This document shows positions 6,750 to 63,550 of a stretch of 64,000 nucleotides of DNA, one piece after another (within the stretch, counting starts at the first letter, position 1; every line of letters begins with the position of its first letter). This DNA comes from Xestospongia muta (Eukaryota > Porifera > Demospongiae > Haplosclerida > Petrosiidae), in NCBI GenBank assembly GCA_963693285.1, contig OY848917.1, positions 13,764,192 through 13,828,191 on the forward strand, given 5' to 3'. The notes below the pieces were generated by a model. It searched no databases. It was not told the origin of the DNA and saw nothing but the letters and a program-made list of their open reading frames with translations. The position numbers were made by a program, and so were the translations under genes.

Positions 6750-7670
6750 CTATTTATATACATCAAGCGGCTGTAGTAGATGAGTAGTATGAGCAGGAAG
6801 ACAAAGCATGTGGATCTGATATTTTTGAGTGTACTCTATTACTTCAACAGAAATATGTGATGCATGGCCATCAAGAATAAGCAAAATTGGTCTAGCAGGA
6901 GGTATCATTTCAATGAAAAGTTTGAATCAATCCATGAACAATTCACCATTAACCTTGCCAGAATCACTACATCAAAAAGTAGTTCCAACCAAGGCACCTA
7001 CTTTCAACACATTTGTTATCATTTTACAAGGATAAATAAGATATGGTGGCATAGAAAAACCCAAAGCTGAAACACAGATTAAAATTGTATAGGTCTTACC
7101 CTTTTCTGCTGAAGTTATTGCCCACACATTGCGACGGCCTATCTCTGAAAAGACTCGTCCAGGCTTGTGGACAATGCTGATTCCAGTTTCATCCATGTTG
7201 AAGATTTGCATCAGTTTAGATATAATATACAGCCTAGCATAAAGAGCACCTAGTTTTGCGAAGTAGTCTTGAATTATGCACGGATTTGCACAGGCAGCAC
7301 GTGAATGGGATAGAGATTGTGCTGACCGCAAAGTCAAATTTGGGTGGTGAGATGTAAATCCATCCATCCAAGACCGTCCAGCACTTCCATTAGTGAAAGG
7401 GTGCTTCCGTCCAGATGATTCTGCAATTCTAAAGGCAATTCTCATAACATCATCCCGTGACAGGCCAAACCCCATGCCAGACATTTTTATGAGGTATGAA
7501 ACTACCTGTTCTTCTTCCTCACTTTTGAGGACTGTGGATGGGCCTGGTGTACATTCTAAACTCACAACATGGCAAGTTCTGTGCCTAAGAGTTTCATACG
7601 GCAGATTATAGGTTCTAGAAGCTTCTCTCATTCCCATACCATCCACGACACATTTCAAAGCTGCAGCCAT
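6750..7670 (-). pseudogene. pogo/Tigger-type transposase relic
   Basis: An open stretch (6972-7670) encodes a psq-like helix-turn-helix (MREASRTYNLPYETLRHR), a second DNA-binding region with NGSAGRSWMDGF, and the start of the DDE_1 nuclease (NMDETGISIV). The same frame continues past two stops (TGA after GTTF and TGA after FMD) into LILDGHASHISVEVIEYTQ and LPAHTTHLLQPLD. The first two catalytic Asp residues are therefore recognisable. It ends at a stop in 6750-6752 without the C-terminal tail. Its domains match the larger pogo element at 27777-33679, but it lacks that element's extra modules. Confidence 0.7.
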
Positions 7671-8583
7671 ACTTTCCTTGGTCCATAGCTTTCACACAGG
7701 TTTCGACTTAGATAGTGCCATAATTCTATGTGAAATATTGAGAGAGATCCTTTAATAACCATAGTCCTGGTTCTAAACAGCTCCCTAATTCTATTTAAAG
7801 CATATGGCAAGTAAAAGTTCATTTCTATCATTTACAGAGTTATTCGAACATGTAATTCTATGCAGCATTGTATGTTAAGTAGTAGCAAAATAAAGTCACA
7901 GGTTTATAGTTTTAAACCTTGAGATACTCTGTCAGACCCACAATTTGGCTTTTGTCAAGTTTTGACAACTTTTTGACATTAACTGCTGAAAGGTCAAAGT
8001 TCGCAATATATGCGATTGCGTAAGTCCCTTAATTATGCAATATAAGTGATCAGCAAAATGAAAAGTGAATAAAGAATATAAGTGATCTATGATAAATTAT
8101 AGGAAAAGAAAGTAAAGAAAAATAACTGGAATGACTAAAGTTACTAAGAGCTGGGTATTTAAGATGGCAAGTGGAGCATGGACATAAATAATGACAAGCA
8201 GGGCCAGAACGAGTTGAGAGGTTGGAAAAAGACACAAAAGCTCAACTTGGATCTGGAAACTGTAGACACTTAACTAAAAATAGATTATCCTTGAGCTCTT
8301 AAGTAACAAACAAGAGGTAGAAGGTTGAGAGCTAACAACCTAGAACGATAAGAAGACAACCTGTCATTGAGGATGTACTTGAGAACCGTATGTAAGATGA
8401 GACCGAACAAGGAACAGGTAGAGTAATCTTTTAACTTTTACTGGAGAATCAACAGAAAACGTCCTCCTTATATGTATGCGTTTCTCTCTTCCTCCTGTCT
8501 CTCTTCCTCACAATTTGGGTTTTTGATCTATACATATAAGATTCTTCAGGCTTTTGATCTAAACCAGCAGTATGATTCAGTTA
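7671..8583. other. Intergenic, no gene seen
   Basis: No open frame with family features on either strand and no RNA gene. The part next to 7671 would be the 5' flank of the pogo relic. The right end abuts the Harbinger target duplication at 8581-8583. Confidence 0.4.
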
Positions 8584-23599: not shown

Positions 23600-25275
23600 T
23601 CTGGACTATACATAATTCATGAGGAAAACTGTCACTCTGTGAAATGGCTATCCAATATCGCTCTGCCCGGGAGAGTTTTTCTACGGGCAAATAGGAGCAA
23701 CGAATGACGGAATTTCCTGGGTTACGGCAATTGTTTACAAATCAAAAGATCCATGCTGTCACGCGTTGAAGTCTTGAAAATGTAGAATAACGATCAAATG
23801 GCATGATGGTCGCCACTAGTAGACATGTGGTAGCCAAACATACTTCCTTCTCTTCATCGTGTATCTTGATAGGAGATAAAGATAGTTGTTTTGGCCATTG
23901 TGATTGTGAAATAGTTAACCAGTTGGGACCTTTCCACCACAACTCATAATTCAACAACTCGCTCGGATAAAGACCTTGAGAGGCACAGTCTCCAAAACGT
24001 TTTAAAACTTCGTTGGAAATCGAATTTCAACCATTATTGATTGTATACCTCCCAACCGCTGGAACCATGTTAGCAGTATTGATAATCCTGGAAAAGTAGT
24101 ACCGAGATACATGGTAATTGGAAAGAAGTTGTAGTTCAGTTTTTGTGTCCCAGAGACGTTAAAGGAGTATTTTCATTTTAATGATAATAGGTGAGAACCA
24201 GCCAAAGATATCGAATATCTTGGCGATGTTAGAACAATATCAGGTGATGGTAGATCAGCGATAATTAAGCGAAAGTGATCCAGTGTGGTGTTCCATTCCA
24301 GCCCAAGGGCTTTGACCCAGATATGTTGAGTACTTCAAGGGAGTCTTGGAGGCCTGGATCGATGCTTTTTAGTACAGCAACATCACTGGAATTCCACTTT
24401 CGTAATAGAAATCCACCACAATTAAACAGATCGAGTAGCTGATGGTATAAAAGAATTGCCCTTTCAATAGTGTTAGCTCCTGTGAGGCAATCATCAATGT
24501 AAAAACAGTCTTCTACTACTTTGGCAGCTAAAGGGAATTCGTGTGCCAAATCAAGGGCATTTTGTCTCACAGACATATTGGCAGCAAATGACAAAGCAGA
24601 CACGCCAAAAGCTACTCTTGTCATCCAATAATCCTTTAACAGTTCAGTAGGTTTGACCTCCATCTTGCCTACATCTGCTGTTATTGGCACACGATGCAGA
24701 TGAAAACGCAACAAGACATCAATTAGTGGTAGGTGAATAGTGGGTCCTGAAGTAGAATGTCGTTTAATGATATACCAGATGATGATTTTGCTGAGGCATC
24801 AAAGATTGCATGGGTAAGTAGTATACTTTACTTGCTGGTTTATCAAGATGCTCAGGCGGTACTGCTTCTGCACGTTGCATATTGAAATACTCTTGCATCA
24901 CCACATCAAACTTGACAAACCAATTCTTGCTGTTAAGGGAGTGCTCAAGTGAGAGAAACCTTTGTACTGATTGAGACCTTGATTCACCAAGCATCACACC
25001 CTCTGACATCTTTGGTAAAGGAACTACAAATCGTCCATCAGGGTTAGGGGTGTGCTTAGTCTTGAAATGTTGTACAATGATACGTTCCTCCATGGATAGG
25101 TGAGAAACTAGATGATTGGGCGGTTCTTCAATCTCCGAGAATTTATGAATTAGATCATCTATCATTTCGATTGAGGCATGGCTCACAGTGACAGCAGATG
25201 AACAAGAGGTGGAAGATTTAGTATTACTACATAGTACCCAACCAAAATGGGTTTTGATTGGGTCTCTGTATGTGT
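23600..25275 (-). pseudogene. BEL/Pao reverse transcriptase and connection region
   Basis: Minus-strand blocks in order: DPIKTHFGWVLCSN (protease/RT junction), NPDGRFVVPLPKMSEGVML, NWFVKFDVVMQEYF, RVAFGVSALSFAANMSVRQN and DCFYIDDCLTGANT, where the YxDD catalytic motif reads YIDD. Then come FGDCASQGLYPSELLNYELW and VEKLSRAERYWIAISQ. Frame changes separate 25186, 24714 and 23957. It ends at the hAT insertion. Confidence 0.75.
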
Positions 25276-25289
25276 GTGTGTATAATTAA

Positions 25290-26725
25290 TTGACTATTAA
25301 GGTGGGTGAACCTGTTGAGGAGTGCATGAGGAAATTGAAGAACTTAAGGGATCAATTTGTGCACGAAAAAAAGTGAAGAAAAAGACAGGTGAAGAAGGAC
25401 CACCATATGTTCCTTCATAGGAACTTTATATTAACATGATATTCCTACAGGACTCCGTAAAACATAGAACATAAGTAATCATTAATATTTATAGGTGGAA
25501 CAAGAATAAAATTGTATTAATTATTATTATTATAGAACACATTCCAACTTGTCCACTGATTCACAAAAGCTTGAAATTGAAATTGTAACTGAGAGTATGT
25601 CACCAATTAACGATTCAAAGTAATGATTATAATATCGATTAATTAATGGTTCAGTTAATTAATGGAACTTTCCCTTTTAGTATATCCCTAGATGGCGAAA
25701 CTTTGGAACAGGCTGGGATAATATCAAGATCATCATGAAGTACATCATCTGCAAAGAAAAAAAAACGAGGGAATGTGGAAGGCACATTGGTGCAGCACTT
25801 CACCGTTTAAGTCCTAAACAGAAAGCTTTAGCTAAAGTGCAAATTGAACAAGTTCTTGTTAATATTGAATTTCCTTTAAAGACATATGGTAGGTCTGGTG
25901 CGGATGTTCCTGGCAATGGACGACTTCTTGGAATATGAAGTGTCTGATTCTCTATTGCTTGACCAAAATCGGAGTTAGCAAACACACCTCCATCACTCTG
26001 ATGTCCTGCATCACCTATATCTACTAAAATAAACCTATAATGTGCGTCACAGACAGCCATTAGTACTATGGAAATGAGTTCCTTTATAATTAAAGTAAGT
26101 AGAACCCCCATTAGCTGGGGCTTGAATAACAATATGTTTTCCGTCCATCGCTCCTAACAAATTGAAGGAGTTTCACATATACAGGTTGCAAAACATGCCA
26201 CAAATCTTCACATGTCTCTTTCAATATTCCAGACACAGTAGATTTTCCAACACGAAAACTAAATGATAATGATACTTGGGAATTTCTAGTGGCCAGGTAT
26301 CGTATTGCTCTAACCACACTATTATAGCTTCTCTTTGACAAGTAAATACAAACCAAACTCTAATATATCAAATTTTTCTTTAGTCATTTTGAGATAATGC
26401 CAATGAGACTATGGGTCTTTTAGCCTCAATTTTTGTAATAGACAATGATATTCACCACTTATGCGACGATTGGCAAATATATCTCTCACCCACATTTTCT
26501 CCTCAGTTTCTTTCTCCTCCTTCGTCAAAAAATAAGCAGGAGCAGGAGCCTTGAGATAGTTTTATTATCTGCCATTTTTAGTAGGTGGAGTTTAAACTGT
26601 GATCATGTGGGCATGATGTAGCGCTGCAAAAACAATTGTGAACAACATGCAACGTAGTCACAACATTCAACAATACACAGCGGTACGCAACGTCACCCTT
26701 CCGTCGTATTGTGAACAAGCCTTAA
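25290..26725 (-). mobile_element. PIF/Harbinger DNA transposon 2 inside BEL/Pao
   Basis: Minus strand: KMWVRDIFANRRISGEYHCL, SQVSLSFSFRVGKSTVSGIL (26111-26356) and VDIGDAGHQSDGGVFANSD (25800-26132), a HARBI1-like transposase with a stop and frame changes. Plus strand: ECMRKLKNLRDQFVHEKK near 25320 and GAALHRLSPKQKALAKVQIE near 25790, pieces of a MADF/BESS partner. Pao protease sequence ends at about 26727 on one side and resumes at about 25275 on the other. The right end reads inward AGGCTTGTTCACAATACG; I could not find its left partner, so the left edge is approximate. Confidence 0.65.
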
Positions 26726-26734
26726 CTCTCACGG

Positions 26735-27775
26735 ACAAACCATTAGGTGCCATAATTAGTACTTGACACGTCATTAACAATGAGTAGGGTTTCAACTTTG
26801 CTGCAGCTGTGTTAGCAGATACTTCTAGTTCATTTGGAGTTGATGTGACAGACTGATGGGGTCGATCCTTTCATTGTTCTCTATGACCTGTATAATAGAG
26901 TATGGTGAGGGTTCTGGCACTTCCTGCACCTATGGAGAGATTTATACTCGGCCAGAAAATGACCCTTATTAAGGCAGTTCATGCAAATATAATTTACTTT
27001 TACAGTGACCATTTTCCTTTTATCGGATAGTGACTGGAATTTCGGACAAGAGTATAGAGGGTGTTTCACTGTCTTACAGCAACATATTAGTGCCTTGAAA
27101 TCCACGCAACAGGAGCTGTCTCCTTCGTTCATTACTTCTATCATCGAATTGAAGTTGAACCCAACTACTATGTTCAAGTGGCAACAACATACTCAGTCAG
27201 TCTCAGAACAAGGTGCCACATTACCGAGAGATGTTGGAGTTCCTCGATCGTCGTGCTCAAGCATCAGAGATTTCTACACCCAGTAAAGGGCAACCACTAC
27301 CATCACAAACTTGGAGTGCGTCAAGAATCATCTTAACATGGGTCTGATGTATCAGACGAGGACAATCAAATCAGGCTGTTAGACAATCCACTGCTTCAGT
27401 ATACTGTTCTCCTGACTGAGAAAGGCCTTCTATTATAGGCTTGGCAGAACCATCCTTGAGGGCATGCTGTAGATATACAAGTTTCTCAGCATTAGATGAA
27501 TTTGGTCGATTGTGAATAGACACACAATACTGCTCCCAGAATTGTCTCTAGTGGAGAATGTTACCATTAAAAGTTGGAACTGCCAATTTAGGATGTCACA
27601 CACCCAATCCAGTACGATCAGACAGAGTAGTGGTCATAGTAGTGGTAGATTCAGAGGTTTTGCATGTTTTCAGAAGCTTTCAGATGTAATGGAATTATTC
27701 AAATAGTACAACTTCGAGTTTGGAGTGAATTGTTAGTTGGTCTTGCACGACACCTTCATCATTGACAGATAGAGT
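26735..27775 (-). pseudogene. BEL/Pao gag C-terminus and protease start
   Basis: Minus strand from about 27640: PKLAVPTFNGNILHWRQFWE, AEKLVYLQHALKDGSAKPI (DUF1759-like gag), then 26881-27177 with CCCKTVKHPLYSCPKF and CMNCLNKGHFLAEYKS (zinc knuckles), then PYSLLMTCQVLIMAPNGLSV at the protease. Stops interrupt, for example after DCLTA. The Harbinger 2 insertion follows at about 26725 and the pogo element precedes it. Confidence 0.7.
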
Positions 27776-27776
27776 A

Positions 27777-28145
27777 ACTGACCAATTGTCGGACAAATCA
27801 ATTTTCGGACACTTATATCTCGTGAACAACAGACTCCTGGATGCTGATTATACACACACAAACTGCTTGCGTACAAAATACCAGGTTGCAATCTTTTGAT
27901 ACGTAGGTTTTACAGCTACAAAACCAACACTGTCCGAACTTGGTGTTCTTTGGACATTACTATCAATCTTTGTCCGCAAGCTTCCAAATAGCCTTGAGAT
28001 AAAGAATTGCCACTAAATTCCACAATATAAGCCTTCCATCATTGCTCTTTCAGGCGTCCAAACCAGAGCCTTGAAACATTGTATATTTAAGAATAGGAAG
28101 ATGACAAAAAATGTGTATCACGTGATCAAATTTAGGACACACGTG
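27777..28145. repeat. Left terminal inverted repeat of pogo-type element
   Basis: It matches the reverse complement of 33295-33679 at high identity, with an insertion of about 16 bp in the right copy (near 33580). Both include GTCCGAA and GTGTCCTAAATTTGAT. Outermost bases are ACTGACC. Confidence 0.85.
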
Positions 28146-28234
28146 GTAATACTCTAAGGTGTCACTGTGACAATCACACTTATTTTTGAAGTTCAAAAAT
28201 GTAATTAGACGTTACATAACACAAAAAGTACTAA

Positions 28235-28440
28235 TTAATAACATGTCTTGCAGTACCAAACATCAGGAACTTCTGTGGGATTGATACAAACACAGGAACA
28301 ATGAAACCATTTATGACACTTATCACACAAGATCATCATAACATCATACTCTTCAGGCATATAACACAGACAAAATAGTTTAATGACATGAAGGCGTCTT
28401 GAAGGACGAGGAATATACTCTTTTACAATTTTAGGGAACA
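28235..28440 (-). pseudogene. PHD finger, C-terminus of pogo-element protein
   Basis: The open frame encodes PKIVKEYIPRPSRRLHVIKL, then CLCYMPEEYDVMMILCDKC, then HKWFHCSCVCINPTEVPDVW and YCKTCY, stopping at 28235-28237. Cys-Cys, Cys-Cys, His-Cys, Cys-Cys is the full C4HC3 set of a PHD finger, with the Trp before the last pair. It follows the Ulp1 segment within the same exon (28235-28751), separated from it by a 1-base frameshift near 28445. Confidence 0.75.
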
Positions 28441-29107
28441 ATGACAATTTCTTTCTTCAAAACATTCAATGAGGTGGGCACGCATCTTTCGTTGATCAAA
28501 AGTGGCCAGTTCAGGATTGTTTCCAAAGCATACTTTTATTACTGTAGCAATTGAGAATGGACCACAGTCATAACAACTTTCCTGTTGTTGCACTGAACGC
28601 ACTTGCACTCTCAAATTAGACAGTAAAAAAGAATATATTTTTGAAATTTGAAGGATTGCAGATTCTGTTAGAGTAAAAAATAATGCCAAACTATCCATCA
28701 CTTCAACAAATCCAGGTTTCTGACAACAAGTACATATCCAGTGATTTGATCCTATAGTAATAAATTATACCAAAACATGAACCCTGAGTACAGATCATGT
28801 GACATTAAACCTTCCCAGCAAAACAAGTTACTATAGTTTGCTCAACATAATTACTAAGTTATAACAACATCAATACTACTAATTATACATGTACCTGTGT
28901 GAAGTATCTGAATAGCAGGAACATTAGATATTGATAAAAACTTAACAGTATAACCCAACAGTGTATTTTGGAATCCAAGGATGTGAGGAAATTGATGCTT
29001 CAATAATGTCTGTGCAGCATTAATCACACTATCCGAAACTTCAGAACCATTCTCAATACACTCTTTATCTGCCATGTAAAGGTTGAGTTCCTTAATCCAC
29101 CAAACAT
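28440..29107 (-). pseudogene. Ulp1-like (C48) cysteine protease domain of pogo-element protein
   Basis: Exon 28895-29107 encodes DVWWIKELNLYMADKE and LLKHQFPHILGFQNTLLG. A 143-bp intron leads to exon 28235-28751 with SNHWICTCCQKPGFVEVMDS, carrying the catalytic His and Asp, then VQQQESCYDCGPFSIATVI, carrying Gln and the nucleophile Cys in DCG. This is the His-Asp-Gln-Cys layout of SUMO/ubiquitin-like proteases. Both junctions are phase 1, matching the mini-exon array upstream. Such domains occur in several eukaryotic transposon families; the substrate here is unknown. Confidence 0.75.
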
Positions 29108-29164
29108 CTATGAAAAACATCAACAATATATGTCTGCATTAGAAGAAGTACTACAAGTTAACAC

Positions 29165-31411
29165 CTTTGTTTTTGTCTCTAGGGCACTTCTCTACAACTT
29201 GAAGCTCAGAGAGATCTGCTTCAGACTGTAATAACTCTACAACAAAGTAATAAAGGTATGATAATAATTAACACACCTTTCTTCCTGCTCCTCCTCTGTA
29301 TAGGCTGTATCTCAGGCTCAGAGTGATCTGCTTTGGACTCTAAAAACTCTACAACAAAGAGTAATAAAGTTATGTTAATAATTAACACACCATTCTTTCT
29401 GCTCCTCCTCTGTATAGGCTGCATCTCAGGTTCAGAGAGATCTGCTTTTGACTGTAAAAACACTACAACAATGTAACAAAGCTATGTTAATAATTAACAC
29501 ACCTTTCTGCTCCTCATCTGTATAGGCTGCATCTCAGGCTCAGAGAGATCTGCTTTGGACACTAAAAACTCTACAACAAAGTAATAACACACTTTTCTTT
29601 CTGCTCCTCGTCTGTTTAGGCTGCATCTCAGGCTCAGAGTGATCTGCTTTGGACTCTAAAAACTCTACAACAAAGTAACAAAGCTATGTTAATAATTAAC
29701 ACACCATTCTTTCTGCTCCTCCTCTGTATAGGCTGTATCTCAGGCTCAGAGTGATCTGCTTTGGACTCTAAAAACTCTACAACAAAGTAATAAAGCTATG
29801 TTAATAATTAACACACCATTCTTTCTGCTCCTCCTCTGTATAGGCTGTATCTCAGGCTCAGAGTGATCTGCTTTGGACTCTAATAATTAACACACCATTC
29901 TTTCTGCTCCTCCTCTGTATAGGCTGCATCTCAGGCTCAGAGAGATCTGCTTTGGACTCTAAAACAACAAAGTAATGAAGCTATGTGAATAATTAACACA
30001 CTTTTCTTTCTGCTCCTCCTCTGTATAGGCTGCATCTCAGGCTCAAAGAGATCTGCTTTGGACACTAAAAACTCTACAACAAAGTAATAAAGCTATATTA
30101 ATAATTAACACACCTTTCTATCTGCTCCTTGTCTGTATAGGCTGCATCTCAGGCTCAGAGAGATCTGCTTTGGACACTAAAAACTCTACAACAAAGTAAC
30201 AAAGCTATGTTAATAATTTATACACTTTTCTTTCTGCTCCTCCTCTGTATAGGCTGCATCTCAGGCTCAGAGAGATCTGCTTCGGACTCTAAAAACTCTA
30301 CAACAAAGTAATAAAGCTATATTAATAATTAACACACCTTTCGTCCTGCTCCTCCTCTGTTTAGGTTGCATCTCAGGCTCAGAGAGATCTGCTTTGGACA
30401 CTAAAAACTCTACAACAAAGTAATAAAGCTATGTTAATAATTAACACACCTTTTTTTCTGGTCCTCTTCTGTATAGGCTGCATCACAGGTTCAGAGAGAT
30501 CTGCTTTGGATTCTAAAAACTCTACAACATAGTAATAAAGCTATGTTAATAATTAACACACCTTTCTTTCTGCTCCTCCTCTGTATAGGCTGCATCTCAG
30601 GCTCAGAGAGATCTGCTTTGGACACTAAAAACTCTACAACAAAGTAATAAAGCTATGTTAATAATTAACACACCTTTCTTTCTGCTCCTCGCCTGTATAG
30701 GCTGCATCTCAGGCTCAGAGAGATCTGCTTCAGACTGTAATAACTCTACAACAAAGTAATAAAGCTATGTTAATAATTAACACACCATTCTTTCTGCTCC
30801 TCGTCTGTATAAGCTGCATTTCAGGCTCAGAGAGATTTGCTTTGGACTCTAAAAACTCTAGAACAAAGTAATAAAGCTATGTTAATAATTAACACACTTT
30901 TCTTTCTGCTCCTCGTCTGTTTAGTCTGCATCTCAGGCTCAGAGAGATCTGCTTCGGACTCTAAAAACTCTACAACAAATTAATGAAGCTATATTAATAA
31001 TTAACACACCTTTCGTCCTGCTCCTCCTCTGTTTACGCTGCATCTCAGGTTCAGAGAACTCTGCTTCAGACTGTAAAAACTCTACAACAAACTAATAAAG
31101 TTATGATAATAATTAACACACCTTTCTTTCTGCCCCTCGTCTGTTTAGGCTGCATCTCAGAATCAGAGAGATCTGATTCAGACTGTAAAAACTCTACAAC
31201 AATGTAATAAATCTACGTTAACAAGTAACACACCTTTCTTACTGCTCTTTGTCTGTTTAGGCTGCATCTCAGGCTCAGAGAACTCTGCTTCAGACTGTAA
31301 AAACTCTACAACAAAGTAATAAAGCTATGTTAATAATTAACATACCTTTATTCCTACTCCTCATCTGTTTAGGCTGCATCTCAGAGAGCTGTGCTTCTGA
31401 CTGTAAAAACT
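29165..31411 (-). repeat. Array of 21 tandem mini-exons (112-bp unit)
   Basis: Each full unit on the minus strand is a 72-bp exon plus a 40-bp intron starting GTGTGTTAAT and ending TTTGTTGTAG. From 30338 to 31346 units recur every 112 bp exactly. The exon begins AG and ends G, so every junction is phase 1, and each adds 24 residues around EFLESKADLSEPEMQPIQRR. The first exon (31346-31411) is 66 bp. The last (29165-29236) is 72 bp but has a diverged end (VVEKCPRDKNK). Units near 29502, 29816 and 29895 have shortened introns, some lacking an acceptor. The repeat is acidic then basic, with no known fold. Confidence 0.85.
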
Positions 31412-31452
31412 CTAAAACAAAATAATGTGAGTCGCATTTCCTTTTGACTAAC

Positions 31453-33110
31453 CCTTCCTTTTCACACATTTTCCACATTTTTTCTTATCTTCTCTAAGTC
31501 TCTTCCGTTCTTCTTTTAGCTGAGCCTCTATTTGCTTTTTTCTTTCTTTTTCTTCAATTATTTGTAGGTTATGACTGCTAGTGAGAACTACACCTGCTGA
31601 CTTTCCTCTTTTAGTCTTCATTTTGCTTGGAGACATAATTGGAACTAAAAAGCTTTTAACAGTGGATGTTGACTTAGTAGGTAATGAGCTTTCTCAAAAG
31701 TGCCTTTCATACAAGTTAGAATCAGAGTATGACCTTTCCATGATGGATGTAGCATGCCTTAAACCTGAGGTATCAAAACAAGAATCATCAAGTGCTGTAT
31801 CATGTGAACATTGACGCGGAGTACTGGTAATCATAGCCTGTTTTGAACGCCTAACAGAGGGGCTATACAACGGAATATATGCTAAACCAGTTTTTTGTGC
31901 AAGAATGTCTGGCTTAAAAAGAGAAAAGTTTTCCTCTGATTCCTTCTTATCTAAAAAGTGTGTTGCTATAACTGGTCTGTTGAATGGAAAAACCCCTGTT
32001 ACTTTAAAACTTGACACAATAGTTTTAATTGTAAATGCTCGTGACCATGCTTTAGAGAAGAGTTCACAAAACTCATATTGAGATACAGTCTTTCCTGGAT
32101 TCTCTGAAATATACTTGTGGCAAAGCTGTCTCCATTCAATCTTCAATGGTGCAAAACAGGCACGATCAAGTGGTTGTGTGACGTGCGTCGTGTGAGGTGG
32201 CAATGCAAAAATAATTATTTGATTCAGTGCTGCTATATTGATCATCTCAGGGCCATAATGAGTCGAATGCCCATCAAGCAATAGAAGTAATGGCCGGACC
32301 TGTGGTGCATAGAGTAAAAAGTGATTGGTAAACCAGTGTAAGGTCCCTGGTCATCCATCCGCTATCTGAAAGGCCGTATAGGGTTCCTGGTATTTCCCCT
32401 TTGGTCAATTCCTGATTTAAAGACTTTCTGTTGAAGATTATAAAAGGAGGAATGACATATCCAGCAGCACATGAGCATACCAAGACAGTTATTTGAGACT
32501 TATTGCTACCAGTTATATAACTAGGATTCTTAGAACCCATCTGATCAACTATCTTTAAGCTCTTTGGGCTCAAAGGAAGACCAGTCTCATCACAGTTGAA
32601 AATATGTGTAGGATTATCAAATATGCCATTGCTTTTGAGTGTTTCCTCCAGCATGTCATAATAACAATGAAAAACATCAGAATCGGTTGCCATAGCGCGT
32701 GCATAAATTAAAGGCATAGCTGACTTCAAAGTTAAATTTGGGTGCCTCTTTCTAAACTTTTCCACCATCCATTAGAAATACTAGCTTCAATACTTTTACT
32801 TTCAATAATTCTTTGGACAAGTGCCAAAAACTTGTTTTTTGGTATGTGGGTAGCCAATTTTTGCGGTTTGAATTAAAAAACTTGCTAATTCTTCCTCCTC
32901 TAAGTAAGTTAAATAGGGGTTAGGTCCAGGTTTTGCTCCACAGTGCACCTTACCATTAATTCTATCGTAGAGTGATGATTTTGGAACAGAGTATATTTCA
33001 GCAGCCCTCCGAATGGACATCCCAAGCTCTACCTCTTTTATTGCCTTATGCATACTTCCACTGTCCCAGCCCTTATATTTACCACGCAAAGAAAACATTT
33101 TCCTTGACAT
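31453..33110 (-). pseudogene. pogo/Tigger-type transposase (HTH-psq + DDE_1) with coiled-coil tail
   Basis: ATG at 33110 begins MSRKMFSLRGKYKGWDSGSM; the psq-type helix-turn-helix follows (MSIRRAAEIYSVPKSSLYDR). After a 1-base frameshift near 32845 and another near 32765 come HPNLTLKSAMPLIYARAM and FNCDETGLPLSPKSLK (first Asp). A third frameshift near 32300 precedes LLLDGHSTHYGPEMINIAAL (second Asp) and HTTHVTQPLDRACFAPLK. A TGA at 31694-31696 interrupts the same frame before the tail, which has EEKERKKQIEAQLKEERKRL. The tail exon ends at 31453 with a donor and splices in phase 1 to the mini-exon array through a 41-bp intron. Confidence 0.8.
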
Positions 33111-33294
33111 TTCTCACTTGTGACACACACTCCTCTAAACCTATCCTTGACGACCCTTCTCGAAAGTGGAGGATGTGAATACATAACCTGTAAATTGAGG
33201 AATTGAAGTTTAAATAGTTCTATCGGTTCGCTTACTCTGAAAAAAGGAGATATAAACACTCCACGCGCTCACAGTCAACCTCACAGTTCACTCT

Positions 33295-33679
33295 CACGTG
33301 TGTCCTAAATTTGATCATGTGATATACATTTTTTGTCATCTTCCTATTCTTAAATATACAATATTTCAAGGCTCTGGTTTGGACGCCTGAAAGAGCAATG
33401 ATGGAAGACTTATATTGTGGAATTTAGTGGCAATTCTTTATCTCAAGGCTATTTGGAAGCTTGCGGACAAAGATTGATAGTAATGTCCAAAGAACGCCAA
33501 GTTCGGACAGTGTTGGTTTTGTAGCTGTAAAATCTACGTATCAAAAGATTGCAACCTGGTATTTTGAATGCAAGCAGTATATCTATAGTCCTATTTGTGT
33601 GTGTATAATCAGCATCCAGGAGTCTGTTGTTCACGAGATATAAGTATCCGAAAATTGATTCGTCTGATTATCGGTCAGT
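33295..33679. repeat. Right terminal inverted repeat of pogo-type element
   Basis: Reverse complement of 27777-28145. It carries about 16 extra bases (TAGTCCTATTTGT region near 33580) not in the left copy. It ends GGTCAGT, followed by the TA duplication. Confidence 0.85.
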
Positions 33680-33699
33680 TACTCCAGTAGTTTTGTATG

Positions 33700-34193
33700 G
33701 ATAGTAGACAACTCTGTCTTGTAATCAGATAACTGTGCTTCATATTGTTTAATCATAGAAACATTGTCATGGTCGGATGGTAATGCTGTGATAGCGTCAC
33801 ATGTGGTGATGATTCTCTTTTCCAAATGACCTTTCATGATGACAATTTTTGATGATCAACTGATGATGGCGTAGCAATCAAACCTAAATGCTTGAGGTGA
33901 ATATTCATGTCAGCAACAAGGTCATCATGTTCATCGAGTATCTCCTGTTCCCTTTCTAACACTTCATCTTCACCTTCATCTAGCAAGTCAACAAGTTGGA
34001 GATGAAATGCTTTGAAGTCATCATCCAGTGTTTCAAGTTTAACCGTCAGCTCTTGGGCATGATCAGTAGTAGTGGGTTGATCCGAGATAGCTTCTAGTTC
34101 ACAAAGGCGTTTTTCGAGGCGAGTGATTAAAGAATGAGTTACTCCTCTTCTTCTTATTTCAGTGAGTTCCCGAGGATCAGCGGTAGATTGCAT
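33700..34193 (-). pseudogene. BEL/Pao gag N-terminus
   Basis: Open minus-strand frame 33834-34193 encodes LITRLEKRLCELEAISDQ and LVDLLDEGEDEVLEREQEI, a helical acidic segment like the start of Pao gag proteins. After a frame change the coil continues (IKQYEAQLSDYKTELSTIHT) up to 33682, exactly where the pogo element begins. Gag resumes on the far side at 27775. Confidence 0.6.
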
Positions 34194-34409
34194 GAGTGCG
34201 ATGAGTTACAATGATAAAGGACTTAAAAGAGGACTGTACGATGAGTATCTGATACTAAGCCAGAGAGACTGCTTCTATATTGGAATGAAGTATAGGGAGA
34301 TGTATCTGGTTCGGTGGACCAAAAATATGATTGAGCTTAGTACAGATTGCGAGTACTACACAAGAATACCACTGATCAGTCAATATCCACGACACAACAG
34401 AGAATGAGA

Positions 34410-47960: not shown

Positions 47961-48177
47961 TTTATATATTTTATCATTTAATTTGTTTCTTGTTTGTTTA
48001 AAAAGTTTTAGGCTTCAGTGCCAATCAATATATACTAAATTTATTTTACCTCTTAATTGTGCGTAATTATGATACGATATACGACATAATTATAAAACGA
48101 TTGACGAAACCCCACCCCTTAACTTTCAATCCAGCTTCATAGCAGAGAATCTGACGACTGACGTAGGTGTATCTAGA

Positions 48178-48315
48178 ATGGCAGGCAGGAAAACTAGTGG
48201 TGATCCTTTTAATGCTTCTGAGTTTATAACAGATACAGTTATTTTAATGGCCAGTGACTACACTAATGAGTATTCAGTTTTTATGAGACTATCAAATATT
48301 TTCCCAACTAGATGA
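48178..48315 (+). CDS. Small ORF conserved in both duplicates
   Basis: MAGRKTSGDPFNASEFITDT then VILMASDYTNEYSVFMRLSN, 45 residues, stop TGA at 48313-48315. The second copy at 55518 is open too, with one residue changed (FMR to FMK). It could be a first exon or a small gene, but recent duplication alone could explain the conservation. No domain recognised. Confidence 0.25.
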   Translation: MAGRKTSGDPFNASEFITDTVILMASDYTNEYSVFMRLSNIFPTR

Positions 48316-48450
48316 AAACTACGGCTATTTTCAAGAGCAAACGTTCTTTTGACTCAGTTATACTAATTTTATATACACCAATGTCAGTTTTCTTTCGACT
48401 GATATAATAATACTCTGAGAGTGATATAACCAAAAGGATTATATCGCCCA

Positions 48451-48700
48451 AATAAGACATCAGCTATACCCAGTTGCTTTCCTATCATGACCTCCTCCCT
48501 CCAATGTGTCATTAATTCCCATTACTGCTATAATATAGTCAGCACATTGAGCTGCTAACAAGCTCAATAAAACTCTAATAAAATAAGACATCAGCTATAC
48601 ACAGTAGCTTTCTTATCATGACGTTTTCTCTCCAATCTGTCATCAAGTCCCATTTCTGCTATAACATAGTCAACACATTGGGCTGCTTACAAGAATCTGT
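48451..48700. repeat. Two-unit 131-bp tandem repeat
   Basis: AATAAGACATCAGCTATAC begins units at 48451 and 48582; the rest of each unit is about 80% alike. It is present again in the duplicate near 55791-56035. On the minus strand one unit reads ADYIIAVMGINDTLEGGGHD; the other is not open in that frame. Confidence 0.6.
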
Positions 48701-49147
48701 TTGTATCAAAACGGACAGGAACTAACATTTGATAGCAGGTACTAGTATAAAAAGTAGTAGTTTAAAGTTTAAATAGTTTAAATAAGTAGTTTAGTACAAA
48801 GTAGTTTAATACTAAGATCCTAGACATGATGGTATATAAATAACACGACTATGATATAATTGATATACATGCTTTTGTTCTCTGTCAAAATGTACTATTC
48901 CATAGCTCTTTAGAGCACTCAATATCATTAATAGTATCTATTAGATTCTCTTGTTATATCAATGTATGTAACTTCTAAATGTTCAATTAACAGCTATAAT
49001 ATAATATAAAGAAAAGATAGATGGATAAAAAATGAAAATGTATGTATTAATAGTAAGAGAATGGAAAAAGTGACAAAGTGTTACAGCAGACAAAACATAG
49101 GATTATTTGTAGTATGTAGAATTGGTTTGTGTTACCATAGCAACCAC

Positions 49148-55290: not shown

Positions 55291-56486
55291 CAAAGGGGTT
55301 TATATATTTATTATTTAATTTGTTTCTTGTTTGTTTAAAAAGTTTTAGGCTTCAGTGCCAATCAATATATACTAAATTTATTTTACCTCTCTTAATTGTG
55401 CGTAATTATGATACGATATACGACATAATTATAACACGATTGACGAAACCCCACCCCTTAACTTTCAATCCATCTTCATAGCAAAGATATCTGACGACTG
55501 GCGTAGGTGTATCTAGAATGGCAGGCAGGAAAACTAGTGGTGATCCTTTTAATGCTTCTGAGTTTATAACAGATACAGTTATTTTAATGGCCAGTGACTA
55601 CACTAATGAGTATTCAGTTTTTATGAAACTATCAAATATTTTCCCAACTAGATGAAAACTACAGCTATTTTCAAGAGCAAACGTTCTTTTGACTCAGTTA
55701 TACTAATTTTATATACACCAATGTCAGTTTTCTTTCGACTGATATAATAATACTCTGAGAGTGATATAACCAAAAGGATTATATTCCCCAAATAAGACAT
55801 CTGCTATACTCAGTTGCTTTCCTATCATGACCTCCTCCCTCCAATGTGTCATTAGTTCCCATTACTGCTATAATATAGTCAGCACATTGAGCTGCTAACA
55901 AGCTCAATAAAACTCTAATAAAATAAGACATCAGCTATACACAGTAGCTTTCTTATCATGACGTTCTCTCTCCAATCTGTCATCAAGTCCCATTTCTGCT
56001 ATAACATAGTCAACACATTGGGCTGCTTACAAGAATCCGTTTGTATCAGAACAGACAGGAACTAACATTTGATAGGGAGTACTAGTATAAAAAGTAGTAG
56101 TTTGAAGTTTAAATAGTTTAAATAAATAGTTTAGTACAAAGTAGTTTAATACTAAGAGGCTAGACATGATGGTATATAAATAACGACTATGATATAATTG
56201 ATAAACATGCTTTTGTTCTCTGTCAAAATGTACTATTCCATAGCTCTTTAGAGCACTCAATATCATTAATAGTATCTTTTACATTCTCTTGTTATATCAA
56301 TGTATGTAACTTCTAAATGTTCAATTAACAGCTATAATATAATATAAAGAAAAGATAGATGGATAAAAAATGAAAATGTATGTATTAATAGTAAGAAAAT
56401 GGAAATAGTGACAAAGTGTTACAGCAGACAAAACATAGGATTATTTGTAGTATGTAGAATTGGTTTGTGTTACCATAGCAACCACA

Positions 56487-60957: not shown

Positions 60958-62571
60958 CTAGACAGAGGTTTCTTGACCTCCTTCATCAAGTTTATGGTCG
61001 GCAGCATTAGTCTCCTCATTAGACATTATTTTGGCCTGATCATGATCTGATGGTGTACATATTCCTTTCTCCTTTGTATCAATACTTTGGTTTTTAATGT
61101 TTTGAGAATTGATCTCTGGCATTGAAACATCAGGAATATTATTTCTAAGTTTATCGTCAAACTCGCGAAACTTCTTTATGACTTTTTTAGGACAAACCAA
61201 TGCCTTTATCTCATCAAGGACTAGTACCAGGACCTCAAAGAGTGATATAATACTGATACCAAGAAACAGTCCCATATTACCACCTAAAGTACCCAATAGA
61301 TCGCTCACCAAATACGTGTATTGTGTAACTGTCTTTGTTGTTTGGAGAGCTTCTAAAAAGACATTAACAGACAAGAAATTATCTTTGACGGTCTCTTCAG
61401 ACATGTTCATTGTACTTGCAATCTCAGTAAGAGCACAGCCATTGGGAAAACTAGAGTAGCTATTCTCATATTCATAGACCGTGTATTTGCAGGGCACTGG
61501 ACAAGTACTAACACTGTCAATTTTTGAGAACTGTTTCAGTAAACAGCATAGATTGCTCAGAGTGCAATTAGGTATGTTAGCATAAGGACCCATCTCTGGT
61601 CTGTAAGGACTAGGAACACAACCACATATATTCTCATTGGCTACATGCTCATAAAGCTCATTCTTCCGGCAGGCAAACTGAGAATATACAACATTTGGCA
61701 GGAAAGGGAAATCTGCTTCTTCCTTCCATTTGCAATCGTCTTGATATGTTTCGTCACTGAAAATTGCTCTTTGAACACCAATATCAGCATTCTGACCAGG
61801 TGGTACACTAATACCATACAGGTTTGGACGAGGAATATCGTTTCTTTCATGAATGATAACTTTAACTCCACTTATACCATCAGAGGTTGGATGTGTTTCC
61901 CTTTCTATATTCAGTACTAGTTTCAGTCCATACTTGACACCAATGTTTTTAACAATTGGAGCTGTCATTTCACTTCTATTACCATTGAATGTGTAACAAA
62001 TTCCAGCTGGTGTTAGTACAGGATAAAACATATCTTTGCACAATACCTCTTCACTTGCAGCTTCATGACGAAAACCACAGTAATAAATTAAGTTATTCTC
62101 TTTTGGTAGCAACAAGTTCCATAAATCTTCTCTTTTGTAAAGTTCCGTATTATCTTCAATCAACTCATCACATTGTTGTTCAGTTATGTTGTACTGATTG
62201 AGGAAATTGTAAGAACTGAAAAGGTAGTTGATTAGCGTGTAGGTCTCATTGCTAATAATTGATGAATCATTAGGGTTTTTATAGATATTAAGATTACAAA
62301 TAGTCACTGATGGAAAAGGAAGTCCATTTTTCTTTGATGTTATAACTGTGATGGTTGATGCAGTTGGTCTCTCAAAATAGCTCTTAAAACTGTTGTTAAA
62401 TGTGACACAACAACCTACAAATGAACCAATGAACAACAATCCCCACAGTATTTGCCTGATTTTTGATCTTCCCCTAAAAACGTGAAAGACTCCATTGATT
62501 GTAGTTGTGTCGATAAAGTCACTGAGATACTTGTCAGTCCATGTGTATCCTTTTCTTAATTCGGTAGGCAT
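60958..62571 (-). CDS. DEG/ENaC sodium channel subunit, intact
   Basis: A single 537-codon exon from ATG 62571. Family plan: short cytoplasmic N-terminus, first membrane helix about residues 40-58 (ILWGLLFIGSFVGCCVTF), FPSVTICN at 86-93 where the family has FPAVTICN, a large Cys-rich extracellular domain, second helix about 426-459 with G-x-S selectivity motif (GLFLGISIIS, GIS at 438-440), then a basic and acidic tail. The conserved N-terminal His-Gly gating pair is Asn-Gly here (TTINGVF). Length is normal for the family. Such channels are trimeric, sodium-conducting and often opened by acid, peptides or force; the stimulus is unknown. Two related fragments lie at 38845 and 63601 on the same strand. 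Confidence 0.92.
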   Translation of the reverse strand: MPTELRKGYTWTDKYLSDFIDTTTINGVFHVFRGRSKIRQILWGLLFIGSFVGCCVTFNNSFKSYFERPTASTITVITSKKNGLPFPSVTICNLNIYKNPNDSSIISNETYTLINYLFSSYNFLNQYNITEQQCDELIEDNTELYKREDLWNLLLPKENNLIYYCGFRHEAASEEVLCKDMFYPVLTPAGICYTFNGNRSEMTAPIVKNIGVKYGLKLVLNIERETHPTSDGISGVKVIIHERNDIPRPNLYGISVPPGQNADIGVQRAIFSDETYQDDCKWKEEADFPFLPNVVYSQFACRKNELYEHVANENICGCVPSPYRPEMGPYANIPNCTLSNLCCLLKQFSKIDSVSTCPVPCKYTVYEYENSYSSFPNGCALTEIASTMNMSEETVKDNFLSVNVFLEALQTTKTVTQYTYLVSDLLGTLGGNMGLFLGISIISLFEVLVLVLDEIKALVCPKKVIKKFREFDDKLRNNIPDVSMPEINSQNIKNQSIDTKEKGICTPSDHDQAKIMSNEETNAADHKLDEGGQETSV

Positions 62572-63550
62572 TATGACCTGTAAATAAAATAGTGCTAGCT
62601 ATAATGTACATTTATGGCATTGTAACTGCTGTTTAAAATTTGTAATGCAAGCAGTCAGGTGATCTGGGTAATGAATACTAAGCTAACTGTGTAGTACGTA
62701 ATATAAGCAACACATCCAATCTAGCAGTGTTCTAGAATAACTAACATACTCGTTACCTAAAATTGCAATAATTGTAACTGGGATGTCATGTTGTATTTAG
62801 TTATACATCCTATACCTTTGTGGAATGTTTCTCATCATTATGTAACATTTTAAAAAGTGCAAAACATTAGTCTAACCAACAAGAAAACCAACTAGCTTTT
62901 TGGCTGCAAATAGCCAATCAGGCCTTATGGCATAGATAGCGTAATAAAACAGTTCCAATTATATATATACTGACATATCAGTCAGTTTTGTGTTCAGTAA
63001 TTGAGTGACATAGCACTGAGCTAGAAACCTGTAGCTGTTTATATGCAGCAATATAATGTACAGTTGTACTGACTGTACTGATTGTGAGGCCAACTTGATT
63101 CCATTAAGTTATTTCAGAGGTCATAACTAAAGCTGAATCTGGATAAATATTATTAATAGACAACTCACCTAAGAAAATCAAAGATAACACTACCTTCTCC
63201 AGTAATTGTACAGTACAGTACAGTTCCAATCAGCTCAGTGCAGTGGTCAAATGCTACTGGCTGAAAGATTAATGCTGATCCGCGAATCGCACCGGTTTAT
63301 TAATAATTCATTTGTTATAGTAATTCGCTGTGGGTATTTTAGTTAAGTTCAATGAATAGATTTGTCACATCTGATAGTGCAGCATTCCACACGTAACATT
63401 CACATGAACCATAATTAAATTATATGAGAAACTAACTATTATAAGCAACGAAAATAAGCAATAAAAAAATAAAATAATTACTGAACTACAATAATAACTA
63501 ACTATAAAACAATGATAAGCAACTAAACTGAAACACTACAAATTTAGAAT
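62572..63550. other. Intergenic between two DEG/ENaC genes
   Basis: 5' flank of the intact channel. AT-rich with no coding signal. A GTACAGTACAGTACAG-like run occurs near 63212. No obvious TATA box with supporting context. Confidence 0.4.

Follow-up and report, generated by a model that had tools for sequence, protein, structure and literature searches.

A pogo-type transposon of the sponge Xestospongia muta whose transposase gene probably continues through a repeat-exon array into a Ulp1-type protease and a PHD finger

In the 64,000 nucleotides of Xestospongia muta contig OY848917.1 analysed here (the window), positions 27772–33684 are a DNA transposon of the pogo superfamily with its gene on the minus strand. 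Judged from its sequence and that of its relatives, this single gene probably gives rise to one spliced protein, in which a transposase is followed by a linker of repeat exons, a Ulp1-type cysteine protease and a PHD finger. A first-pass annotation, made from the letters of the window alone, had called such a protein plausible, and it has gained support: many copies, diverged families included, carry the protease and PHD finger together with the transposase; in the window these lie inside terminal inverted repeats (TIRs), with an empty site to match; where a TGA codon interrupts the window copy, 9 of the 11 copies read have a sense codon; and the sponge Amphimedon queenslandica has a single annotated protein of this composition. 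The element is a TIR-bounded unit with a fixed gene order, conserved reading frame and donor sites, and a relative annotated as one protein.

What are the limits of the element? Its TIRs measure ~375 bp, in line with the 370–385 bp first proposed, and comprise inverted arms of 284 nt (97% complementary) and 91 nt (93% complementary). Among 30 termini read in the window and in other copies, 27 show TA followed by GAGTA, which sets the element ends at 27772 and 33684; chance or internal matches lacking a preceding GTA were omitted, and four loci in this count (L010–L013) have common flanks and are not independent insertions. The TA target named in the first-pass annotation therefore stands, but not its position: 27775–27776 and 33680–33681 lie inside the TIRs, the true ends being 5 bases wider on each side. 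TA is found at both ends in six copies (L016, L022, L027, L028, L029 and L032). The joined flanks of the window copy (200 + 200 bases) recur at their full 400-base length at 3 further sites (90–91%) and partially at 2, and the one empty site that was aligned (L038) has a single TA at the junction where the window holds the element. With empty sites elsewhere and the protease and PHD finger inside the TIRs, the whole stretch, both modules included, arrived as one piece. The insertion surroundings are repeated sequence with a retroelement look, copies of which exist elsewhere free of the pogo element. The pogo element sits inside minus-strand fragments at 24265–27192 and 33834–34205 that we take to resemble a BEL/Pao-type retroelement.

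Does the protease belong to the transposase? We searched the genome (158 Mb, 28 contigs), with 151 matches for the transposase and 99 for the protease; once overlapping, fragmentary, weak or unlisted rows had been removed by hand, 86 and 83 of these, respectively, were compared. Of the 86 transposase rows, 33 are followed within 12 kb by a same-strand protease, none has one upstream and one has it on the other strand, and transposase and protease identities correlate (Spearman 0.82 for 34 pairs within 25 kb). It is exceedingly unlikely that a transposon had by chance landed beside, or once captured, a host protease gene. In favour of such an accident, the 25 kb upstream of 50/83 protease rows contain no transposase in the same orientation; against it stand the one-sided linkage, a protease enclosed by the TIRs of an element that has empty sites elsewhere, and an order common to diverged families and another species. 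Those solitary protease loci that were fetched and have family-1 TIRs are deleted or 5′-truncated copies, and more distant solitary rows may be other elements or host genes. The check on other genomic copies that the first-pass annotation had proposed ended, for many of them, with the protease/PHD segment at the side of the transposase.

The domain order is common to three diverged families, with TIRs found for two of them. Family 1 is that of the window; family 2 (L026–L029, L032 and L033) has ~69–74% DNA identity to family 1 in alignable stretches (L026–L028), and both carry the TIRs and TA-type target of the pogo superfamily. In family 3 (L030 and L031), L030 is 49–52% identical in the transposase core and 35–41% in protease and PHD finger. 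Pfam recovers HTH_psq (3e-7), DDE_1 (3.4e-15), C48 (1.1e-4) and PHD (1.1e-5) from L030 in this order, albeit in broken frames, and C48 (4e-4) from L031; both loci have an array of 54-nt exons. Two pogo genes with no protease match nearby (L036 and L037) end in a similar basic coiled coil and show, within the 4 kb examined, no further long frame of that kind; by comparison with these, the extra modules may have been appended behind the coiled coil. The viral contigs searched for relatives yielded none. Loci L010–L013 (family 1, contig C4), whose flanking DNA is ~97% identical, are missing the 5′ transposase part and apparently represent a truncated copy spread by segmental duplication. Within family 2, an insert with inverted ends (CAGACATGGGGCAAGC...) occupies the intron before the first protease exon in L027 (5961–6336) and L028 (3974–4349), and one end of it was found also in L026 and L032.

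The window carries a DDE_1 domain with a DDD triad at pogo spacing and an N-terminal helix-turn-helix of the psq type (PF05225), and Pfam E-values and residues uphold the full minus-strand series read earlier: HTH-psq, DDE_1, coiled coil, His-Asp-Gln-Cys protease and PHD finger. Pfam matches DDE_1 also in L027, L032 and L030, and the patterns for the first catalytic Asp and for DD35D are present in the window, L009, L028, L029, L032 and L030, all three Asp being intact in L032; the pattern for the second and third was looked for in L016 and L031 and not found. The window copy is dead, with its transposase spread over several frames, an in-frame TGA ahead of the coiled coil, protease and PHD finger in different frames, and, in its array, one unit with a stop codon and two without AG. 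The TGA, which recurs in L028, is what one would expect if the element encoded two proteins, a transposase that stops after its DDE/C-terminal region and a separate gene for protease and PHD finger. We consider this improbable, given that 9 of the 11 copies read at this position have a sense codon (CGA in seven, GGA and CAA in one each; the position was not found in L026), that the joins are phase 1 throughout and that Amphimedon has one annotated protein. The transposase exon, coiled coil included, has no break between the start region and the first donor in L027 (587 codons) and L032 (588 codons), and the last exon is open across protease and PHD finger for 191–193 codons in L027, L028 and L032 and for 176 in L009, L013 and L016. 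Both introns singled out in the first-pass annotation, of 41 and 57 nt, have their GT...AG ends.

A protein search with a family-2 composite, for which 7992 candidates were scored, gave A. queenslandica as the nearest named protein among the matches listed (the best 120 of 392), with 54% identity over 69% of the query. In this species, the annotation of LOC109581489 has the entire domain order in a single protein. Its isoforms X6 and X14–X18, those among the matches listed, span 1117–1370 residues and have HTH_psq, DDE_1 and PHD by precomputed Pfam, and their sequences (P0021 read in detail) show coiled coil, repeat array, protease motifs and PHD finger. All six are identical outside the array and differ within it, with 8, 11, 12, 13, 13 and 18 units; a search for long proteins with a protease–PHD end returned only these six among 689 candidates. 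Against the X. muta genome, the Amphimedon protease–PHD stretch gives long matches of up to 48% and shorter ones of up to 61%. A further relative, P0059, is one open frame of 725 residues in which a pogo transposase is joined to the first protease exon, with no array visible in the sequence inspected.

The 21 repeat exons counted in the first pass are 20 units and a terminal variant. Among the 20, AG is present in 18, GT in 20 and the phase is kept in 20. Across copies, the phase is kept by 101/106 units of family 1, 88/88 of family 2 and 9/9 of family 3, and 88, 83 and 8 units, respectively, pass for AG, GT, phase and absence of a stop together. Unit exons are 72, 69 and 54 nt long in families 1, 2 and 3, all phase 1. 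The units tabled measure 66, 69 or 72 nt in family 1 (100 units, two of them 73 nt), 69 nt without exception in family 2 (114) and 54 nt in family 3 (9), such that 221/223 are multiples of three while intron lengths shift by single bases; this table is without L017, L019, L021, L028 and L029, which are in the phase count (L021 with no unit there), and includes L034 and L035. The donor GT is off consensus in 1/162 (family 1) and 1/130 (family 2), as against 7.2% and 9.8% in intron bodies (81 and 65 distinct units). Unit number is variable: 8 in L016, 17 in L009, 20 in the window, 29 in L027 and 46 or more in L026. The transposase and protease matches of the C9 copy are separated by 21.85 kb, and both samples from the interval (2,001 and 1,501 bases) consist of repeat throughout; from this spacing we estimate about 176 units. 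The units of families 1 and 2 and of Amphimedon are acidic in their first half and basic in their second, unlike those of family 3. A SUMO-interacting motif common to the units was considered and rejected: a simple hydrophobic pattern has a frequency of one per unit in Amphimedon (5 units counted), as against 0.01, 0.04 and 0.00 per unit in families 1, 2 and 3.

At the far end of the gene, PF02902 (cut-off 20.7 bits) scores 24.2 in the window, 22.6 in L030 and 20.7 in L031. H, D, Q and C, which by comparison with SENP1 we take to be the catalytic residues, are kept in aligned copies of all three families, and a predicted model of the relative P0012 (mean predicted local distance difference test, pLDDT, of 84) has a fold nearest SENP5, SENP2 and SENP1. 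By sequence, the PHD finger is nearest to PHF2, Spp1, PHF8 and BPTF; it has the C4HC3 zinc ligands and the conserved Trp before the last zinc pair (PF00628 and alignment), and of the positions that we take to form the aromatic cage of H3K4me3-reading PHD fingers one looks shifted. The protease and PHD finger are under selection against amino-acid change between families 1 and 2. In comparisons of L009 with family 2, the ratio of nonsynonymous to synonymous change (dN/dS) was 0.14 (one comparison) and 0.13–0.15 for the first and second protease exons, respectively, 0.31–0.38 for the PHD finger and 0.19–0.21 for the C-terminal extension with the coiled coil; synonymous change in DDE and HTH was saturated.

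What, then, speaks against a single protein? Between families, synonymous change has reached or nearly reached saturation, and within family 2 (L032 versus L027) dN/dS of the PHD finger is 1.35, on few changes, with other parts at 0.28–0.57. L032 and Amphimedon P0021 fall below the Pfam C48 model, though their catalytic residues are kept. In L027, Asn replaces the first catalytic Asp and 2/29 units contain a stop codon. The Amphimedon isoforms are predicted proteins, and a full-length model of P0021 was discarded as too poor to use (mean pLDDT 42). Inverted repeats of at least 25 nt were not found in the two family-3 loci fetched, TIR bounds being those of families 1 and 2. A seven-sequence tree, built without named pogo families, groups family 3 with pogo genes that have no protease match nearby; on these sequences, either the modules would have been gained before the split and then lost, or they would have been gained twice. 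Lastly, nonsynonymous-to-synonymous ratios among units (pN/pS; 81, 65 and 9 distinct units) are 0.81, 0.61 and 0.89 for families 1, 2 and 3, with similar values in the wrong frames, and hence give no sign of codon-level constraint, although concerted turnover could mask selection on units. Lack of such constraint and strong swings in copy number would suit a minisatellite growing within a large intron and left untranslated, while the transposase exon is spliced directly to the protease. There is little to recommend this explanation in view of units that stay multiples of three beside drifting introns, a GT that departs from consensus less often than intron bodies do, unit exons that differ in sequence among the three families and yet are all phase 1, and Amphimedon proteins that contain the units. 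The outer joins are also phase 1, and the fusion of transposase, protease and PHD finger would therefore hold even with an untranslated array.

How might the fused protein work? We suppose that in X. muta a transcript joins all parts. HTH_psq would recognise the TIRs and the DD35D core would catalyse; next to these would come the coiled coil, then a linker of tandem units of 18–26 residues, each encoded by one phase-1 exon, and finally the Ulp1/SENP-type cysteine protease and the PHD finger. With symmetrical exons, units can be gained, lost or skipped without frame change, leaving linker length free to vary. The protease would presumably cut a SUMO-like protein and the PHD finger may bind histone H3, perhaps H3K4me3; together, they could shield the element or its transposase from silencing linked to SUMO, or direct it to open chromatin. 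A bolder and rather doubtful proposal is that the array serves as a length-adjustable multivalent tether: unequal exchange and exon skipping would create transposase isoforms of graded length, from a few charged units to well over a hundred, and the tether would set reach or condensation between the DNA-bound transposase and the protease/PHD end, which would strip SUMO at marked chromatin so that the element moves.

Table 1. Features of the pogo-type element in the window (positions of the 64,000-nt stretch).
Feature	Position	Strand	Basis and remarks
Target site TA, left copy	27770..27771	.	Comparison of termini; single TA here in empty site L038
TIR at the 3′ end of the gene	27772..28145	+	Arm complementarity 97% / 93%; termini compared among copies
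PHD finger (C4HC3) and stop codon	28235..28420	-	PF00628, E 1.3e-6; frame differs from that of the protease part in the window copy
Second protease exon with His, Asp, Gln, Cys	28423..28751	-	PF02902, E 3.4e-5; continues into the PHD region
First protease exon	28895..29107	-	AG before, GT after, open frame; counterpart is the first exon of the Amphimedon protein
57-nt intron, GT...AG	29108..29164	-	Read from the sequence
Terminal variant repeat exon, 72 nt	29165..29236	-	Read from the sequence
Array of 20 repeat exons	29277..31411	-	72 nt each, the first 66; introns mostly 40 nt
41-nt intron, GT...AG, coiled coil to array	31412..31452	-	Read from the sequence
Basic coiled coil	31448..31693	-	In the transposase frame behind the TGA; listed frame extends 5 nt into the intron
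DDE_1 transposase core, DD35D	31694..32771	-	E 2.7e-14; split by frame breaks
N-terminal part with HTH_psq	32802..33184	-	PF05225, E 5.7e-10; start codon read near 33184
TIR at the 5′ end of the gene	33295..33684	+	Inverted-repeat comparison
Target site, right copy, now CA (changed TA)	33685..33686	.	Comparison of termini and empty site

Outside the element (Table 1), two further minus-strand stretches of the window were read by eye: 6972–7691 is a fragment of another, distinct pogo-like transposase whose start is psq-like, and 60958–62598, open for 546 codons, resembles a sodium channel of the DEG/ENaC type. Tandem repeats of 23, 131 and 15 bp are found as one set at 48064–48816 and again at 55403–56156, ~7.3 kb away, which points to a segmental duplication. 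Scans of the window for tRNAs and Rfam families were empty.

Is the combination new? The first-pass annotation held it to be unusual. In the literature covered (titles and abstract openings, with most subscription papers and Repbase Reports outside reach), no pogo element with Ulp1 or PHD finger was found. As a module on a transposase, however, Ulp1 plus PHD is already known: the portion seen of the 2010 Ginger paper (PMC2836005) describes Ulp1 in several Ginger1 elements of Hydra and Ulp1 with a PHD finger in Ginger1-9_HM. Like the sponge element, Ginger1-9_HM is a TIR element with both domains at the C-terminus of its transposase (other Ginger1 elements having Ulp1 alone); unlike it, Ginger1 has an integrase-type transposase, zinc finger and GPY/F motif, with an exon array not mentioned in that portion. 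Pfam assigns HTH_psq and DDE_1 to the transposase part of the present element, which sets it outside Ginger1. Mutator-type elements with Ulp1, as cited in the portion seen of PMC2836005, likewise combine an Ulp1-like protease with a DNA transposon, but their transposase is of a different type, a distinction drawn from description only. In the part seen of a 2020 survey of pogo elements (PMC7386202), the superfamily matches ours in DDE_1, TA target and the Fot-like features HTH_psq and DD35D, and long TIRs (392–856 bp) occur in a few insect elements; the elements span 1.20–5.20 kb with transposases of 300–977 aa, a range exceeded by L027 (7.9 kb) and, by estimate, by the C9 copy (>20 kb). A word search of its main text for protease, PHD and intron gave nothing, and the terms tried were likewise absent from the searched text of a 2020 paper on pogo-like diversity (PMC7325037). 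The host genes POGK, POGZ and CENPB also have a pogo transposase fused to further domains, but they are domesticated, with KRAB, zinc fingers or a dimerisation domain and no protease listed in the part seen (PMC7386202). Amphimedon LOC109581489 has the same domain order in one predicted protein and a unit number that varies between isoforms, yet differs in unit sequence, the commonest there being of the QSDYESEPSTKTGTRGRKKKLVDIQP type. It is the fusion of the protease–PHD module to a pogo transposase through an exon array of variable length, common to diverged families, that looks new.

Together, this places a Ulp1-type protease on the unrelated transposases of Ginger1 and Mutator (as far as seen in PMC2836005) and here of pogo, with a PHD finger behind it in Ginger1 and pogo. 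Such recurrence argues that the editing of SUMO-like marks may matter to animal transposition, and the fused sponge copies offer a place to test it. The array, for its part, is a natural coding region that grows by whole symmetrical exons, and should be useful for studying both the splicing of near-identical mini-exons and the evolution of linkers.

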